Virus record (IMG/VR): IMGVR_UViG_3300036715_001941
Span: 1-33,001 of that record
Reading direction: 5' to 3' (one strand)
Source: a virus
Length of the DNA: 33,001 bases
Part shown: positions 3,796 to 31,512 of the stretch, piece by piece
How positions within the stretch are numbered: position 1 is the stretch's first letter
Layout: each line of letters begins with the position of its first letter
Position numbers and translations under genes: made by a program
The notes under the pieces: model-generated
Database searches by the model: none
What the model was told of the DNA's origin: nothing
What the model saw: the letters and a program-made list of their open reading frames with translations, nothing else

Positions 3796-3796
3796 T

Positions 3797-3829
3797 AAGA
3801 GTACCCGCCGAAAGGCGGGAATACTCTTT
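3797..3829 (+). terminator. Intrinsic terminator
   Basis: CCCGCC (3804-3809), GAAA loop, GGCGGG (3814-3819), with an outer GAGTA/TACTC pairing (3799-3803 and 3822-3826), then TTT. It closes the 2621-3795 unit directly before the promoter of the Csx3-like gene. Confidence 0.9.
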
Positions 3830-3834
3830 AGCTA

Positions 3835-3863
3835 TGCAAAACTCCATATATATTTGTTATAAT
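3835..3863 (+). promoter_or_regulatory. Promoter of the Csx3-like gene (copy 1 of a repeated promoter)
   Basis: TGCAAA (3835-3840), a 17-bp spacer and TATAAT (3858-3863) with an extended -10 (TGTTATAAT). The upstream box TTTAGCTATGCAAA (3827-3840) and the 19-mer TTTGTTATAATATATATGG (3853-3871) recur almost unchanged at 4240-4291. The -35 is far from the sigma70 consensus, so the extended -10 or an activator at the CTATGCAAA box is likely important. Confidence 0.75.
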
Positions 3864-3873
3864 ATATATGGAG
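3842..3873 (+). repeat. 12-bp perfect inverted repeat over the -10 box
   Basis: CTCCATATATAT (3842-3853) and ATATATATGGAG (3862-3873) are perfect inverted repeats around 8 nt that include most of the TATAAT box. The position suggests an operator whose occupation would block RNA polymerase. Only the right half is conserved in the sister promoter at 4255-4283. Confidence 0.7.
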
Positions 3874-3907
3874 ACACTTATGTTTCCCATCCAATTGAGA
3901 GGACCAC

Positions 3908-4195
3908 ATGATTTTGACTTTTGAAGCTATCGCTCTGAAGGCCGGTTTCGTTCCTAATCTGGACGGAAAGTTCTCGCTTCCAGCTACTCAAGAAACCGCA
4001 GATAAGCTTGGTGCTGCGGCTCTTGCGTTACTTCCTGAATGGCAGGTTGGAGATCCTGCCGTGGAAGCGACAATCACAGGGGCCGCCCCCGTTTGGGGAT
4101 GGCTCTGCATTGCACATTCCCTTCACGGACGAGTTAGCAAACTGATCTACGCTGCGCCCAACGCACCGGAGATCGTGATCTATAGCCATTCTTAA
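3908..4195 (+). CDS. Csx3/Crn3-like protein (possible ring-nuclease-family anti-defence protein)
   Basis: A 95-residue protein whose C-terminal half, from ITGAAPVW (56-63) through IAHSLH (68-73), LIY (79-81) and IVIYSHS (89-95), follows the pattern I-S-G-x-x-P-I-W, L-A-H-x-x-H, V-Y-x-P, V-V-V-x-S-H-S of Csx3 as I recall it. Csx3 (Crn3) cleaves cyclic tetra-adenylate, the second messenger of type III CRISPR systems. The family's histidine pair is present, but the aspartate of its Y-D-P-R motif is replaced (YAAPNAP), so it may bind rather than cut, or use another site. Length fits a minimal Csx3. The G+C content looks clearly higher than that of its neighbours, suggesting recent transfer. It has its own promoter, GAGAGGA ribosome site and terminator. 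The family call is from motif memory, not a search. Confidence 0.55.
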   Translation: MILTFEAIALKAGFVPNLDGKFSLPATQETADKLGAAALALLPEWQVGDPAVEATITGAAPVWGWLCIAHSLHGRVSKLIYAAPNAPEIVIYSHS

Positions 4196-4213
4196 TAAGA
4201 ATGGTGGTAGATC

Positions 4214-4242
4214 AAAGAAAAGGCTTATACAGCCTTTTCTTT
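4214..4242 (+). terminator. Intrinsic terminator of the Csx3-like gene
   Basis: AAAGAAAAGGC (4214-4224) and GCCTTTTCTTT (4232-4242) form a perfect 11-bp stem with a 7-nt loop; the right arm itself supplies the T-rich tail. Confidence 0.8.
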
Positions 4243-4254
4243 AACTATGCAAAG

Positions 4255-4283
4255 TGCAAAAGCAATATATTTTTTGTTATAAT
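4255..4283 (+). promoter_or_regulatory. Promoter of the 48-aa gene (copy 2 of the repeated promoter)
   Basis: TGCAAA (4255-4260), a 17-bp spacer and TATAAT (4278-4283) within TGTTATAAT. It shares the 19-mer TTTGTTATAATATATATGG (4273-4291) with the first copy, and the box TTTAACTATGCAAA at 4240-4253 differs by one base from that at 3827-3840. Here the box is separated from the -35 position by 7 extra bases, yet a second TGCAAA restores the 17-bp spacing. Confidence 0.75.
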
Positions 4284-4291
4284 ATATATGG

Positions 4292-4369
4292 TGGGAATAA
4301 TATCTGTTCTCACCCCACTCGCTCAGATGAGCGTATGCTTACCGGCGCTATAAGTCCGGTGGAGGTCTT
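4292..4369 (+). promoter_or_regulatory. Structured 5' leader of the 48-aa gene
   Basis: This leader of about 80 nt can form GTGGG/CCCAC (near 4289-4318), CGCTC-AGAT-GAGCG (near 4319-4332), and ACCGG/CCGGT (near 4341-4360); the last ends right at the GGTGGAGG ribosome binding site. It looks richer in G+C than the genome. It may be a regulatory leader; no known riboswitch was recognised. Confidence 0.45.
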
Positions 4370-4516
4370 ATGACCATCAGTTCCTATCCCATGGTTGCAG
4401 TTCCCGTGGTTTCTCCTGTTGGGAAAACTCAGCAGGAAATCGAGCGCGAACGTCAGATCATGCGGGCAATTGCCAAGCAGGTTGAGGAAAACATGCTCGC
4501 CTATCAGCACAGGTGA
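4370..4516 (+). CDS. Small hypothetical protein (48 aa)
   Basis: A 48-residue ORF with one of the best ribosome binding sites in the window (GGTGGAGG, 5 nt before the ATG), its own promoter and its own terminator. It begins with a hydrophobic, proline/valine-rich stretch (YPMVAVPVVSPVG) and continues as a charged helix (TQQEIERERQIMRAIAKQVE, then ENMLAYQHR). Not recognised. Codon use appears richer in G+C than that of the neighbouring genes, as in the Csx3-like gene. The shared promoter suggests that the two are expressed together, perhaps as host-takeover or anti-defence factors; that is inference. Confidence 0.7.
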   Translation: MTISSYPMVAVPVVSPVGKTQQEIERERQIMRAIAKQVEENMLAYQHR

Positions 4517-4523
4517 GCATACG

Positions 4524-4548
4524 AAGAAAAGGGATTTTCCCTTTTCTT
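4524..4548 (+). terminator. Intrinsic terminator of the 48-aa gene
   Basis: AAGAAAAGGG (4524-4533) and CCCTTTTCTT (4539-4548) form a perfect 10-bp stem with a 5-nt loop. The sequence closely resembles the terminator of the preceding cassette at 4214-4242. Confidence 0.8.
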
Positions 4549-4568
4549 AACTATTAATAGAGGAATTT

Positions 4569-16023: not shown

Positions 16024-16980
16024 ATGTTAGCATTTTTAGAAACTGATTTAACAGTTGATGCATCTGGTTTAAATATCGGTGGTAGTAGCAATAATTCTTT
16101 AGCTGTTCCTATTACAATTGATCAAAGAAGTACGCTTGCAGCATTAACATCATTTACTGCAACTGTGCCAAATAATGCCGATGCTACTGTACCTTTTACT
16201 TTATCTGTAACAAAATTAGATACTCAGTACTGTACATTAAACATTATATTTAATCAACCAATTGCTAATGTTCATTTTAATGAATTACGAGTTATTACAA
16301 TTCATGGCTCTAATGGCGACACCTTTACAATTAATATAACTATAAACTACGCCAGTACTTTTACTTCTGCTAACTGGACAAATTCAGATGAAACCTTAGC
16401 AATAGATGACATTGATTTAAGAGGGGCTTTAACTTCTAAATCAATCAACAATATGTTTAGAGCATTACTTAGCACCAGTCTTACTGCTCTTAATAAAGCT
16501 AAAAATAATGCAATTTATTACTATTATAAACAAAGACATTTAAACGACATTATTGATTTTGCTATTGCTGGTGGTTCAAGTTTTGAGCCTTCATCTACAG
16601 TAATTACTTATAATAGCGATGGAAACGTAAATAGTTTAATCACTACATATGCTAATAGAAAATTAAGAATTACCTATAATTATACATCATATACTTTAAA
16701 TAGATTAAGTGGAGCAGATCAAACAACTCCATTAACGACGGAATCAGTTTCTTTATTAAGCAGTTTTTTAATTGAGGTATTAGATAGTGCTAATGCTGTA
16801 GTTTATACATTAGGAACAGTAACAATTAATAGATCTGTAAACACCTATTCCATACCTTACCTTAAAGATTATAATTCTACATTACCATCAGATCAAATTG
16901 CAACTAATCCAGATAATATTTTATCCAATTATAAATACTACAAGACTAATACCATTACCGGATGGACGGTTGTAGCATGA
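16024..16980 (+). CDS. Structural protein, beta-rich (318 aa), probable tail fibre or baseplate part
   Basis: Not recognised by family. It is rich in Ser, Thr, Asn and beta-forming residues (SFTATVPNNADATVPFTLSV, VTINRSVNTYSIPYL), as are phage fibre and baseplate proteins. The first part (LETDLTVDASGLNIGGSSNN) and the region to about residue 118 read like an Ig-like or beta-sandwich domain; the middle has a helix (SLTALNKAKNNAIYYYYKQR). ATG 16024 follows GGAG at about 8 nt. The stop overlaps the next ATG (ATGA), so both are made together. Confidence 0.6.
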   Translation: MLAFLETDLTVDASGLNIGGSSNNSLAVPITIDQRSTLAALTSFTATVPNNADATVPFTLSVTKLDTQYCTLNIIFNQPIANVHFNELRVITIHGSNGDTFTINITINYASTFTSANWTNSDETLAIDDIDLRGALTSKSINNMFRALLSTSLTALNKAKNNAIYYYYKQRHLNDIIDFAIAGGSSFEPSSTVITYNSDGNVNSLITTYANRKLRITYNYTSYTLNRLSGADQTTPLTTESVSLLSSFLIEVLDSANAVVYTLGTVTINRSVNTYSIPYLKDYNSTLPSDQIATNPDNILSNYKYYKTNTITGWTVVA

Positions 16981-19244
16981 GTAAATATGATGAACAGTAT
17001 AAACTTTATTTTAAAGCATCTTTCGATGCCATAAATCATGCCACCGCAAGGGCAGAAGATGCTTATCAATCTTATGCTGCTTTATTAGATAAATTTAATA
17101 GGTATGTTGTCATTAGTGATGAAATTGATGGTCGTCAATCTCAGCTTGTTAAAATTTCAACTACATTTGGAACAGAAGATCCATTAGATCCAAATATTAA
17201 AGAATTTACTTTTAATACTGGATCGGTGTTAAGATATTCAAGAGTATTACCTGCTACGCATAATGACAATCTTGAAGTAGTAAATTTTCAAACATTAATG
17301 AATGTTGTTTATAATAAAAATGATGATATTACACAATCATTATCTCGATATTTGAATAAATATGGTGATTTAGCTTTTGGATCTTACACATTCGGAATAG
17401 ACCCTGGAGGTGGTAGCTCTCAAACTATTACCTTAGACACTATTCCATTAAAAGTACTAAATGCTAAAACAACGCTTGAAACGGGAACATTAAAAACAGT
17501 TATAAGCGATCCGCTTTCATTAATTAATAAACAATATGCAGACGCAACATATGCTCAAGGCTTGGGTGCAGCAAATCAACCAGTTTTCGTTTCTGGTAAA
17601 ATAGCTATTCACAGCACATTAAATCAATCAACTATTCATTCTTTTGGTAAATACGATGTAGTAGCTGGAAGTGGCGGTGATACAAATTATATTAAAATTA
17701 AGTTATTGAAATATAATGCTAAAACATCATGGGACTCTACTGATAAATCATGGGTAGAATTATTTGGTAGTAATCCGCAAAACTCTATTCCAGGGTTTGA
17801 CACTGGTGCTGCTATTGGCAGGATTCCTTATCCTGTAGATTTTACATTATATGTTGAATATGAACCTCCTGCCGCAACTTTTCCTTATTTGCTTATCAAT
17901 AATAGCTCAAGAGTAAGAGCTGTACTTTCAAATTCAATTGGTTCTACTTATGTCGGTGGTTATGTTGAACAGTTTGTAATTATTGATTCTGATGGTGATT
18001 TATGTTTAGTTTTAGAAACAGATTATCAGATAGACATTCCACTTTCAACAAGCTTGATGAGTTTAAATTGTAATTCATCTTATAAACCACTTTTATACTT
18101 AGTTGTAAATAGATGGAGTTATATTCCAAAGGACAATCCATATATTGATCAAGTTGGAACAGTATCATTAAATCCAGTACTGTTATTTACGGATCAAACA
18201 TGGATGCGTGGAGCTACTGATACTGGAGTCATAACTGTAAGATATAGATTATTGTATGCAAATATCACAGGATCAATCACTTGGAGCAGTGATAAAGATA
18301 CATTGTTAGGAATTAAATATGGACAAGATGCATCTGGTTATTATGCAGATATTGCTTTCCCTGTTGGCGAAACAATTTACATTGTAACTTTTAGTGCAAA
18401 TTATGGATCGGTTCTTAGTAAGTCAGTTAATCTGCAATTAAAAAATTATGTATTATCTCCAATAACATCAATCTCACCACTTACGATAACTAAAAGTAGA
18501 TGGGACGGATCACCAGATCCGTTACCTATTTCTGCCACTATTACAGCAGTAGGTGGTGGAACTAAAACTTGGTCTATCTTACCAACTGATGGAACTTTAG
18601 GTACAACAACATTAATAAGCGCAGCCATTAATCCAACTACAGGTGTATTAACTGGAAATTATTCAGTTGCAAATGTTGATTTATTTGCTATAGTATCTGT
18701 AACAGATGGAACTTCTACATACAAAGATAAAATAACGATTCATGTAGACGAATTAACTAGCGGCGGTGGCGGCGGTGGCGGCGGTAGTGATGGTGCTTGC
18801 TTTAGCTCTGATACTTTCGTCTTAACTACAAAGGGTGGCGTAAAAATAAGTGAATTAACATTAAATGATATTGGTATTAATTTAAATTTAGATATGTTTA
18901 GTATTGGAAGATTTGAATTGGCAGAAGGTCAAATCCATGAAATATCGCATCATCATCCAAACGTTCCATTAATTAATATTCATGGTATAGATACTACTAT
19001 AAATCATCTATTTGGTTTAGCAAATGGTCTTTGGAAAGAAGCTTCTACTATCACAACTGATGAGTATCTTGTAAAATTAGTAGAACCTGCTACAATAATC
19101 AAAGATGCCTTTGAAGGATCTAGAGAATCTGATTATATTGGAGAAGTTTGGAATATTCACTTACATGGACTTAATTACTTTGTAAGTAATAATGAGAATG
19201 GTCCTTGGTACTTAGTCCATAATGCAGTAATAAGCTTATCTTAA
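16977..19244 (+). CDS. Tail fibre protein with C-terminal Hint (self-processing) domain
   Basis: A 755-residue protein. The N-terminal part is helical (KYDEQYKLYFKASFDAINHA). Residues about 410-600 contain bacterial Ig-like repeats (ITGSITWSSDKDTLLGIKYG; ITAVGGGTKTWSILPTDGTL). An eight-glycine linker leads to Cys608, which opens a 148-residue Hint domain: CFSSDTFVLTTKGGVKISEL (block A), TTINHLFGLANGLWKEA (block B), GEVWNIHLHGLNYFVSN (block F) and LVHNAVISLS (block G) at the end. Hint domains cleave or splice the chain through the Cys. Here His-Asn is followed by Ala, not Cys/Ser/Thr, so splicing is unlikely; cleavage at Cys608 or at Asn is possible. The ATG at 16977 overlaps the previous stop. 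Confidence 0.75.
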   Translation: MSKYDEQYKLYFKASFDAINHATARAEDAYQSYAALLDKFNRYVVISDEIDGRQSQLVKISTTFGTEDPLDPNIKEFTFNTGSVLRYSRVLPATHNDNLEVVNFQTLMNVVYNKNDDITQSLSRYLNKYGDLAFGSYTFGIDPGGGSSQTITLDTIPLKVLNAKTTLETGTLKTVISDPLSLINKQYADATYAQGLGAANQPVFVSGKIAIHSTLNQSTIHSFGKYDVVAGSGGDTNYIKIKLLKYNAKTSWDSTDKSWVELFGSNPQNSIPGFDTGAAIGRIPYPVDFTLYVEYEPPAATFPYLLINNSSRVRAVLSNSIGSTYVGGYVEQFVIIDSDGDLCLVLETDYQIDIPLSTSLMSLNCNSSYKPLLYLVVNRWSYIPKDNPYIDQVGTVSLNPVLLFTDQTWMRGATDTGVITVRYRLLYANITGSITWSSDKDTLLGIKYGQDASGYYADIAFPVGETIYIVTFSANYGSVLSKSVNLQLKNYVLSPITSISPLTITKSRWDGSPDPLPISATITAVGGGTKTWSILPTDGTLGTTTLISAAINPTTGVLTGNYSVANVDLFAIVSVTDGTSTYKDKITIHVDELTSGGGGGGGGSDGACFSSDTFVLTTKGGVKISELTLNDIGINLNLDMFSIGRFELAEGQIHEISHHHPNVPLINIHGIDTTINHLFGLANGLWKEASTITTDEYLVKLVEPATIIKDAFEGSRESDYIGEVWNIHLHGLNYFVSNNENGPWYLVHNAVISLS
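18762..18785 (+). repeat. Tandem GGC/GGT repeat encoding a poly-glycine linker
   Basis: Eight glycine codons in the regular order GGC-GGT-GGC (9 nt) repeated nearly three times, directly before the Hint domain. It is the most GC-rich short stretch of the late operon and could vary in length by slippage. Confidence 0.85.
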
Positions 19245-29988: not shown

Positions 29989-31467
29989 CTATAAATCTAA
30001 AATATATTTTGCATGACCGCAATCCCAAATTCTTATATATCCATTCAATAACATATTTGCTATTTCTGTCTTATCTGGATCAAATTTATCTCCCAATAAA
30101 TTTGAAAGATTTTGTTTCATTGCATTTCTGCGAGGAATTAAAATATCATTTTTACACCACCAATAATTTGGATCTGTTATTTTTTCTAATTGAAATCCAT
30201 TTTTAGAATAAATATTATTTTCTATATCAGACCAACATAAATCAGCATAAGATATAATCTGTTTTAAATATGGATGATATTTTTTTACATGATTTAATAT
30301 TTTTTGCATAGATCCATAACATCTAATTGAAGTTGCGAATCTATTAAATTCTACAATTTCATCATCACGTTCTCTAAAATTGCCTTTACGTTTATTTGTA
30401 AAAGTTGCAACTCCAATTAATTCTTCTTGTTTATTATATAATCCATAAGAAAATAATGGTATTTCTCCAGCCCCCATTATATGATTATTATTTAGAAATT
30501 CTTTAACATCTTTCCAGTTAACAGAACCAATAGTATATTGATTAGATCTTAAATATTTTTTATTTTGGTTTAATATATTTAGTAATTTAGATTTACATAT
30601 CTCTTTTTTATTAATCCAATAAGGACTAAATATATGTATTAATTTAATATTATTTTGTTTTGCAATAATAGTTTTATTTTTATGATAATTTTCATCTATT
30701 CTAACGTTGGTATCTGTACTATGATAATAACTTCCATTATATTCAATCCCTAAATTTAGTTCAGGAATAAATATATCTATTTCTTTCCCATTAGGTAATT
30801 TAAATGCAGTTTGAATTTCATAATATTGTTTTATAAAATTTTCTAAACTTATTTGTTGTGAAGAAGTTTCTCTTTCAGTAGCTTCATCACATTTAGGGCA
30901 GCCATTTGTATTCCATTTTTTCTTAGCTCTTATAATATTACTAAAATAACTATCCCATTGATAATTACAATTCAAACATTCAACCCTGGATATAAAAGAA
31001 CTAATTCTATTTATTATCTTAATATCTAAAATATCATTATTTAATAATATATTTTTTTGATGTTCAATATCATTATTCATTAATTCATATTTACATTTTG
31101 TACATGGATATTGGTTACGTCTTAATTTACCAACTAAATTATGAACTTGATCATCAAATTCTATACCACATCTTTTACATTTAAAATGATTACCGTTAAT
31201 TTCAAAATATTGATTTAATTTTTCTATTTCTTTCTGTACTTCAGGTTTAATATTCTTTTTTGATATTTCTCTATTAGAACAAATTCTACATCCACCTTTT
31301 TTATTTTTAACTAATCTTTTTAAATCATCTGATCTTAAATTCCACTCATTATTACATAATAAACACTTAAGTTTATAATACCATTTTTTGTTTTCTTTTA
31401 AATATTCTAAAACTTTAATATCTTTAGTATAAGATTCTAATTGCTGCTGAGCAAATTGTATAGACAC
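29989..31467 (-). CDS. Free-standing EDxHD/Vsr-like homing endonuclease with zinc ribbons
   Basis: A 492-residue protein. Three zinc-ribbon units at the N-terminus (C35/C38 with C60/C63; C97/C100 with C122/C125; C164/C167 with C190/C193) are followed by a nuclease core EIDIFIPELNLGIEYNGSYY (229-248) with H249 and K264, then LIHIFSPYW. This G-I-E-x-N-G-x-x-x-H core is typical of the phage Vsr-like EDxHD endonucleases related to I-Bth0305I. The C-terminal part (about 315-492) with FLNNNHIMGAG, EFNRFATSI, ISYADLCW, YWWCKN belongs to the same family. GTG 31467 is chosen as start: GGAGG lies 5 nt upstream. That site is in the arm of an 11-bp hairpin. It lies between two structural gene blocks, as mobile endonuclease genes often do. 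Confidence 0.8.
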   Translation of the reverse strand: MSIQFAQQQLESYTKDIKVLEYLKENKKWYYKLKCLLCNNEWNLRSDDLKRLVKNKKGGCRICSNREISKKNIKPEVQKEIEKLNQYFEINGNHFKCKRCGIEFDDQVHNLVGKLRRNQYPCTKCKYELMNNDIEHQKNILLNNDILDIKIINRISSFISRVECLNCNYQWDSYFSNIIRAKKKWNTNGCPKCDEATERETSSQQISLENFIKQYYEIQTAFKLPNGKEIDIFIPELNLGIEYNGSYYHSTDTNVRIDENYHKNKTIIAKQNNIKLIHIFSPYWINKKEICKSKLLNILNQNKKYLRSNQYTIGSVNWKDVKEFLNNNHIMGAGEIPLFSYGLYNKQEELIGVATFTNKRKGNFRERDDEIVEFNRFATSIRCYGSMQKILNHVKKYHPYLKQIISYADLCWSDIENNIYSKNGFQLEKITDPNYWWCKNDILIPRRNAMKQNLSNLLGDKFDPDKTEIANMLLNGYIRIWDCGHAKYILDL

Positions 31468-31470
31468 AAA

Positions 31471-31495
31471 AACCTCCATACTTAGTATGGAGGTT
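31471..31495 (-). promoter_or_regulatory. 11-bp hairpin that sequesters the endonuclease ribosome binding site
   Basis: AACCTCCATAC (31471-31481) and GTATGGAGGTT (31485-31495) form a perfect inverted repeat with a 3-nt loop. On the - strand transcript the 3' arm contains the GGAGG site of the endonuclease, so folding hides it; five U follow, so it also looks like a weak terminator of the upstream gene. Confidence 0.75.
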
Positions 31496-31512
31496 AAAAT
31501 GCCATTTGTCAA
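31484..31512 (-). promoter_or_regulatory. Putative promoter of the endonuclease gene
   Basis: On the - strand, TTGACA (31512-31507), a 17-bp spacer and CATACT (31489-31484). The -35 is perfect, the -10 poor. A transcript from here would begin inside the hairpin and lack its full 5' arm, leaving the ribosome site open. Confidence 0.5.

Follow-up and report, generated by a model that had tools for sequence, protein, structure and literature searches.

Within a 33,001-nucleotide stretch of viral DNA (IMG/VR record IMGVR_UViG_3300036715_001941, positions 1 to 33,001; hereafter the window), we found a gene of the Csx3 (Crn3) ring nuclease family that encodes a protein with the Csx3 fold, is carried by a phage and has its closest cellular relatives found in type III CRISPR loci. 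A role in counter-defence is probable, and earlier phage surveys did not find genes of this kind. We propose, at a probability of roughly one half, that the gene forms part of a phage moron cassette and that its divergent Csx3/Crn3 product neutralises cyclic oligoadenylate by head-to-tail stacking. With its Csx3 (STAS-like) fold the protein would most likely dimerize, the dimers would stack head to tail around a cyclic oligoadenylate, most likely cA4, and the signal would be cleaved or sequestered, leaving the type III CRISPR effectors of the host inactive. Csx3 has been shown, as a purified protein and in vivo, to clear cA4 and to dampen cA4-based immunity (PMC7371418). The ligand, the stacking, the neutralisation and the benefit to the phage, and with them the type III anti-CRISPR action, are what we infer for the window protein. 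The CRISPR-linked relatives, the carriage by a phage and the retained histidines speak for neutralisation, while the absence of D69, R71 and R46, a Pfam score below the cut-off, a Foldseek E-value of 0.03 and the fact that the cellular relatives come from one order speak against it.

The gene is an open reading frame of 95 amino acids with an ATG start, which occupies exactly positions 3908-4195 on the plus strand, and its product reads MILTFEAIALKAGFVPNLDGKFSLPATQETADKLGAAALALLPEWQVGDPAVEATITGAAPVWGWLCIAHSLHGRVSKLIYAAPNAPEIVIYSHS. The preliminary description, made from the sequence alone, had noted motifs in Csx3 order in the C-terminal half; these are indeed present with the correct spacing (G58..P61-V62-W63, A69-H70..H73 and H94). 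Across all six reading frames the window contains the spaced motif a single time, and shuffling the protein 200,000 times never reproduced it. Two PADLOC models matched the C-terminal half, CARF_HEPN_CSX3 over positions 420-463 of its 464 (E 1.1e-10) and Csx3 (E 5.7e-6). A subfamily profile of 15 sequences, with no canonical Csx3 among them, retrieved the Csx3 of known structure, AfCsx3, from the PDB by sequence (E 1.1e-4), and its alignment to a canonical Csx3 profile by hhalign gave 96.4%. AlphaFold2 modelled the window protein with a pLDDT of 94.6, from an input alignment that included four canonical Csx3 rows and so made the model partly dependent on the Csx3 family. In a Foldseek search of the PDB with this model, the best 12 chains were all AfCsx3 (probability 0.93-0.99), at an E-value of only 0.03 and a TM score of about 0.5 because the N-terminal half of the window protein differs from AfCsx3. 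A short-form phage relative (L074) matched cA4-bound AfCsx3 with a Foldseek probability of 1.00 and a TM score of 0.6. Membership of the Csx3 fold family is thus near certain, and the finding that was to count against it, a lack of any HHpred or structural match to Csx3, did not arise when searched for in kind with hhalign and Foldseek. The comparison with Pfam Cas_csx3 (PF09620), which the preliminary description had also suggested, did not bear out the assignment: the window protein scores 12.7 bits, below the cut-off of 21, and a long-form relative (L067) scores 13.8; six of the seven other viral members scanned pass the cut-off. No match to the window protein was found in NCBIfam or, using the single protein in phmmer, in the PDB, and a BFVD fold search returned no significant match.

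The active site of AfCsx3 is assembled from two faces which meet across stacked dimers (PMC7371418). The D69 face holds cA4 through the main chain of I22, S44, G45 and I49 and the side chains of S44, R46 and R71, and the H60 face supplies H57, H60 and H80 together with Mn2+ (PMC7371418). D69 and R71 are essential or important; H60A and D69A are each dead, mixing the two mutants mutually restores activity, and H60A still stacks on cA4 (PMC7371418). In the window protein H70, H73 and H94 correspond to H57, H60 and H80, such that the histidine/metal half is intact, and these three residues are invariant in all 13 viral-collection sequences aligned. The counterpart of R46 is A59. Between the equivalents of H60 and H80 there is one residue more than in AfCsx3, an indel of uncertain position, so D69 falls on A82 (hhalign, ungapped) or A83 (MAFFT) and R71 on P84 or N85; the spacing of conserved residues (L79, Y81 and P84 versus V65, V67 and P70) favours A83 as the equivalent of D69. 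Judged from these alignments D69 and R71 are absent whichever register is chosen, and a PNAP loop takes the place of the D69-R71 half. The claim that the Y-D-P-R motif is broken, with its aspartate missing, therefore stands. Altogether, the window protein has in common with AfCsx3 (PDB 3WZG, 6YUD; PF09620) the fold of the C-terminal half, the GxxPxW...AHxxH...H motif and the three histidines of the H60 (metal) face, but it does without D69, R71 and R46, has a different and longer N-terminal half, stops at the H80 equivalent with no C-terminal tail, and comes from a phage record in which no Cas10 was found.

This pattern bears directly on how the protein could act. The loss of D69, R71 and R46 disfavours Crn3 chemistry as it is known. 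A pure sponge, binding cyclic oligoadenylate without cleaving it, as the preliminary description had considered, would agree with the lack of D69 in every register, given that D69A of AfCsx3 is dead (PMC7371418), and with the residues of main-chain cA4 contact, which are kept in kind (T57, G58, V62); moreover, non-enzymatic members of Csx15, another stacking ring nuclease family, sequester cA4 (PMC13148439). We nevertheless consider a pure sponge unlikely. The sequence gives no clean pointer to it, because the cA4-contacting side chains R46 and R71 are gone as well while H70 and H73, which serve the metal and not binding, are invariant, and sponging has been argued to be a poor strategy for phages in view of the abundance of the type III signal (PMC13148439). 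Since the residue equivalent to H60 is conserved and is unneeded for binding, slow metal-dependent cleavage appears somewhat more likely than pure sequestration.

Retention of the H face with loss of the D face could also mean that the protein works as one half of a site. More tentatively than the main proposal, we put forward a whole class of Csx3-family proteins, carried by phages and other mobile elements, that use only the histidine half, either with a catalytic arrangement of a new kind or in trans, where they would complete or cap stacks of host proteins; possibly, such a class would be a third viral family of cyclic oligoadenylate antagonists after AcrIII-1 and AcrIII-2, acting by a half-site mechanism. 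The form in which the protein supplies only its H60 face and stacks with it against the D69 face of a host Csx3 or against a CARF/SAVED effector, thereby completing cleavage or capping the effector assembly, is improbable. The mutual rescue of D69A and H60A AfCsx3 (PMC7371418) indicates that a natural subunit without D69 could act in trans, and one particular class of effectors adjoins the genes of the cellular relatives. On the other hand, no host Csx3 is known, and the cellular relatives of the subfamily lack R71 too and hence offer no canonical D69-R71 face. We rank catalysis or a mixed action somewhat above the sponge, followed by half-site partnering and then by another substrate.

The missing D-P-R characterises the subfamily as a whole, probably with its type III CRISPR-linked members, and is not private to the phage. 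An alignment of nine viral subfamily members with four canonical Csx3 proteins from viral contigs shows G58, P61, W63, A69, H70, H73, P84 and H94 to be invariant. A loss of D69 specific to phages, read from the variable residue after the tyrosine, was considered and rejected. This residue is D in the CRISPR-linked members and A, A, V, E, S, L, T, R and D in the viral members; it corresponds to the naturally variable position 68 according to MAFFT and to its distances from P70 and H80, and to position 69 according to hhalign and HMMER, and the contrast is without independent support because the CRISPR-linked members all come from one order.

Those CRISPR-linked members were obtained by screening 399 Pseudomonadota genomes with the PADLOC Csx3 model, which recovered the subfamily in seven genomes, all of one order, and in a metagenome-assembled genome (MAG). 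The cellular relatives share 42-47% identity with the window protein. In five genomes Cas10 is encoded on the same contig as the subfamily Csx3, and one of these genomes shows this twice. Inside RAMP/Cas10 operons, the Csx3 gene directly adjoins or overlaps that of a CARF or SAVED effector with two transmembrane segments (2-TM), and in most of these operons cas1- and cas2-like genes (identified by eye) lie downstream. The nearest cellular relatives found thus belong to type III signalling. The closest among them are the stand-alone type III Csx3 proteins L039-L046 and the C-terminal domain of PADLOC CARF_HEPN_CSX3 (PDLC01844), which have G-P-V-W, L-x-I-A-H-x-L-H-G and the lack of R71 in common with the window protein. 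L039-L046 differ in being products of CRISPR-locus genes (79-85 amino acids) next to TM-CARF or SAVED genes, in reading Y-D-S-P where the window protein has Y-A-A-P, and in lacking its N-terminal extension of 15-20 residues. Throughout the L039-L046 operons the small Csx3 without R71 is the constant element, next to a sensor that is either a 2-TM CARF or a 2-TM SAVED protein. The TM-CARF effector Cam1 responds to cA4 (PMC10808066).

The same relatives weigh on whether the Csx3 fold serves another substrate here (RNA, a CBASS or other cyclic nucleotide, or as a metal-dependent phosphodiesterase) with no role against type III immunity. The residues of ligand contact diverge, AfCsx3 was originally described as a Mn2+ RNase, and the Csx3 domain is also found outside CRISPR in other conflict systems (PMC7159879). 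Yet the closest cellular relatives found all lie in or beside type III loci, and we regard this explanation as quite unlikely.

Eight further subfamily members were found on IMG/VR contigs, with phage hallmark genes in three. A full-length relative (L002/L079) with 63-65% identity to the window protein lies on a contig with integrase-like and KilA-N genes, and L067 has the long N-terminus in common with the window protein. On the contig of a Gammaproteobacteria MAG (L003, 361-630) a truncated copy of the L002 element was present, consisting of only the long-form C-terminal half with unrelated sequence ahead. The three long-form elements form a supported clade (97/100) with a PNxP loop. The short-form members are L051/L074 (with a terminase), L073 (portal), L050/L081 (RNA polymerase beta and a virion protein), L068 (RecE), L077 and L052/L059. 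No Cas10 was found in the record of L002 or in those of the other seven viral-collection members, so the Csx3 gene on those contigs does not belong to a type III system carried by the phage itself. Searches of phages and plasmids by tblastn, as well as blastn, found no relatives, and weak matches of a two-row profile to long ORFs of Gammaproteobacteria (E 0.001-0.004) were taken as chance. Next to the subfamily, four canonical Csx3 proteins with D-P-R occur on viral-collection, putatively viral contigs (L061, L065, L075, L082). In L061 (1448-2326) the canonical Csx3 (F-D-P-R) is apparently fused behind a Nudix-like domain, as seen by eye, and a second contig, L064, contains a frameshifted copy. 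On the 9.4-kb contig of L068 (1809-4464 and 5359-5595), genes for type IV Cas11, Cas7 (Csf2), Cas5 (Csf3) and a CysH-like PAPS reductase form a type IV-B-like set about 1 kb ahead of the Csx3-family gene, a possible cyclic oligoadenylate antagonist, and RecE.

Few viral removers of type III signals are known, namely AcrIII-1, AcrIII-2 and the rare phage Csx16 and Csx20 (PMC12751052, PMC12409355), and AcrIII-1 is the sole earlier viral one named in the AcrIII-2 paper (PMC12751052). A search by Hoikkala et al. of 28,114 phage genomes, using models of Crn1-3, Csx15, 16 and 20, reported AcrIII-1/Crn2 in 36, Csx20 in four and Csx16 in two, but no Crn3 (PMC12409355). The Csx3 family is present on at least nine viral-collection contigs outside this survey set. 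A phage-borne Crn3/Csx3 was not met with in the open-access papers searched, and earlier mention elsewhere is possible. AcrIII-1 (DUF1874/Crn2) and AcrIII-2 (viral SAVED) resemble the window protein in being phage-carried members of cellular ring nuclease or sensor families with a proposed removal of cA4; they belong to unrelated folds or families, and their activity was measured whereas that of the window protein is proposed. Csx15, too, is small and forms head-to-tail stacks on cA4, and some of its members are non-catalytic, but it has a CARF fold and is reported absent from phages (PMC13148439). The subfamily has kept the metal site but no longer has the aspartate and arginine that are regarded as essential. 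If active, the window protein would represent a third cellular ring nuclease family taken by phages for counter-defence, and the residues required for Crn3 chemistry would need revision; if it only binds, it offers a test of whether sponging can beat type III immunity.

The window itself is a fragment of a large contractile-tailed phage, confirming that the gene is carried by a phage. It encodes a C-family DNA polymerase, SSB, a DHH phosphoesterase, a tail sheath, a helicase, an HNH endonuclease and a portal distantly related (25-27%) to those of Vibrio phages of 187 kb and of Salmonella phage Arash. No Cas10 was found in its record, itself a fragment, and a search by the DHH gene for related phages, meant to show whether they lack the cassette, found none. 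The Csx3-family gene has a GC content of 0.53 and the next small ORF of 0.52, versus 0.28-0.41 among 18 further window genes that were measured; the higher G+C than the neighbours is thus real, and this GC-rich insert is consistent with the recent acquisition suggested earlier.

Two GC-rich units, each with its own promoter-like site and flanking hairpins, make up a layout typical of a phage accessory cassette. All features lie on the plus strand. Ahead of the Csx3-family gene are a hairpin with a T-rich tail, a likely terminator (3796-3830; z -5.9, terminator scan), the sequence CTATGCAAA (3832-3840), the promoter-like TTGTTATAATATATATGG (3854-3871) and, upstream of the ATG, a ribosome-binding site GAGAGG read from the sequence (3897-3902). 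Past the gene follow a hairpin with a T-rich 3' side, again a likely terminator (4214-4246; z -5.7), and an exact second copy of TTGTTATAATATATATGG (4274-4291) with CTATGCAAA ahead (4245-4253). The second unit holds an ORF of 48 amino acids (4370-4516; GC 0.52, GC3 0.60), which has no Pfam match, and ends in a hairpin, also with a T-rich 3' side, that is its likely terminator (4518-4552; z -5.3). The 18-base sequence has only these two copies in the window, and two or more at up to three mismatches occurred in 4 of 100 shuffles. Its promoter function is putative, because a generic sigma-70 scan did not call the sites and cannot tell them from chance. The foreign composition, together with the truncated relative on the L003 contig, could fit a gene that was acquired by chance and is now neutral or decaying. 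Such an origin is highly improbable given the intact ORF with its ribosome-binding site, promoter-like repeat and terminators, the 63-65% full-length identity to L002 and the PNxP loop common to three elements.

The leader of the second unit (4292-4370) folds into three stems, only a little better than shuffles (z -1.5), and belongs to no Rfam family; Rfam matches at 4142-4255 and elsewhere were dismissed, being far below gathering scores. Elsewhere in the window, the C-terminal part (GACFSSDTFVLTTKGGVKISEL...) of a large protein of the structural region (16962-19244) looks Hint/intein-like by eye, without a Pfam match, and the HNH/homing endonuclease (29989-31512; PHROG 559, E 4e-74) is encoded on the opposite, minus strand, where the DNA is very AT-rich.
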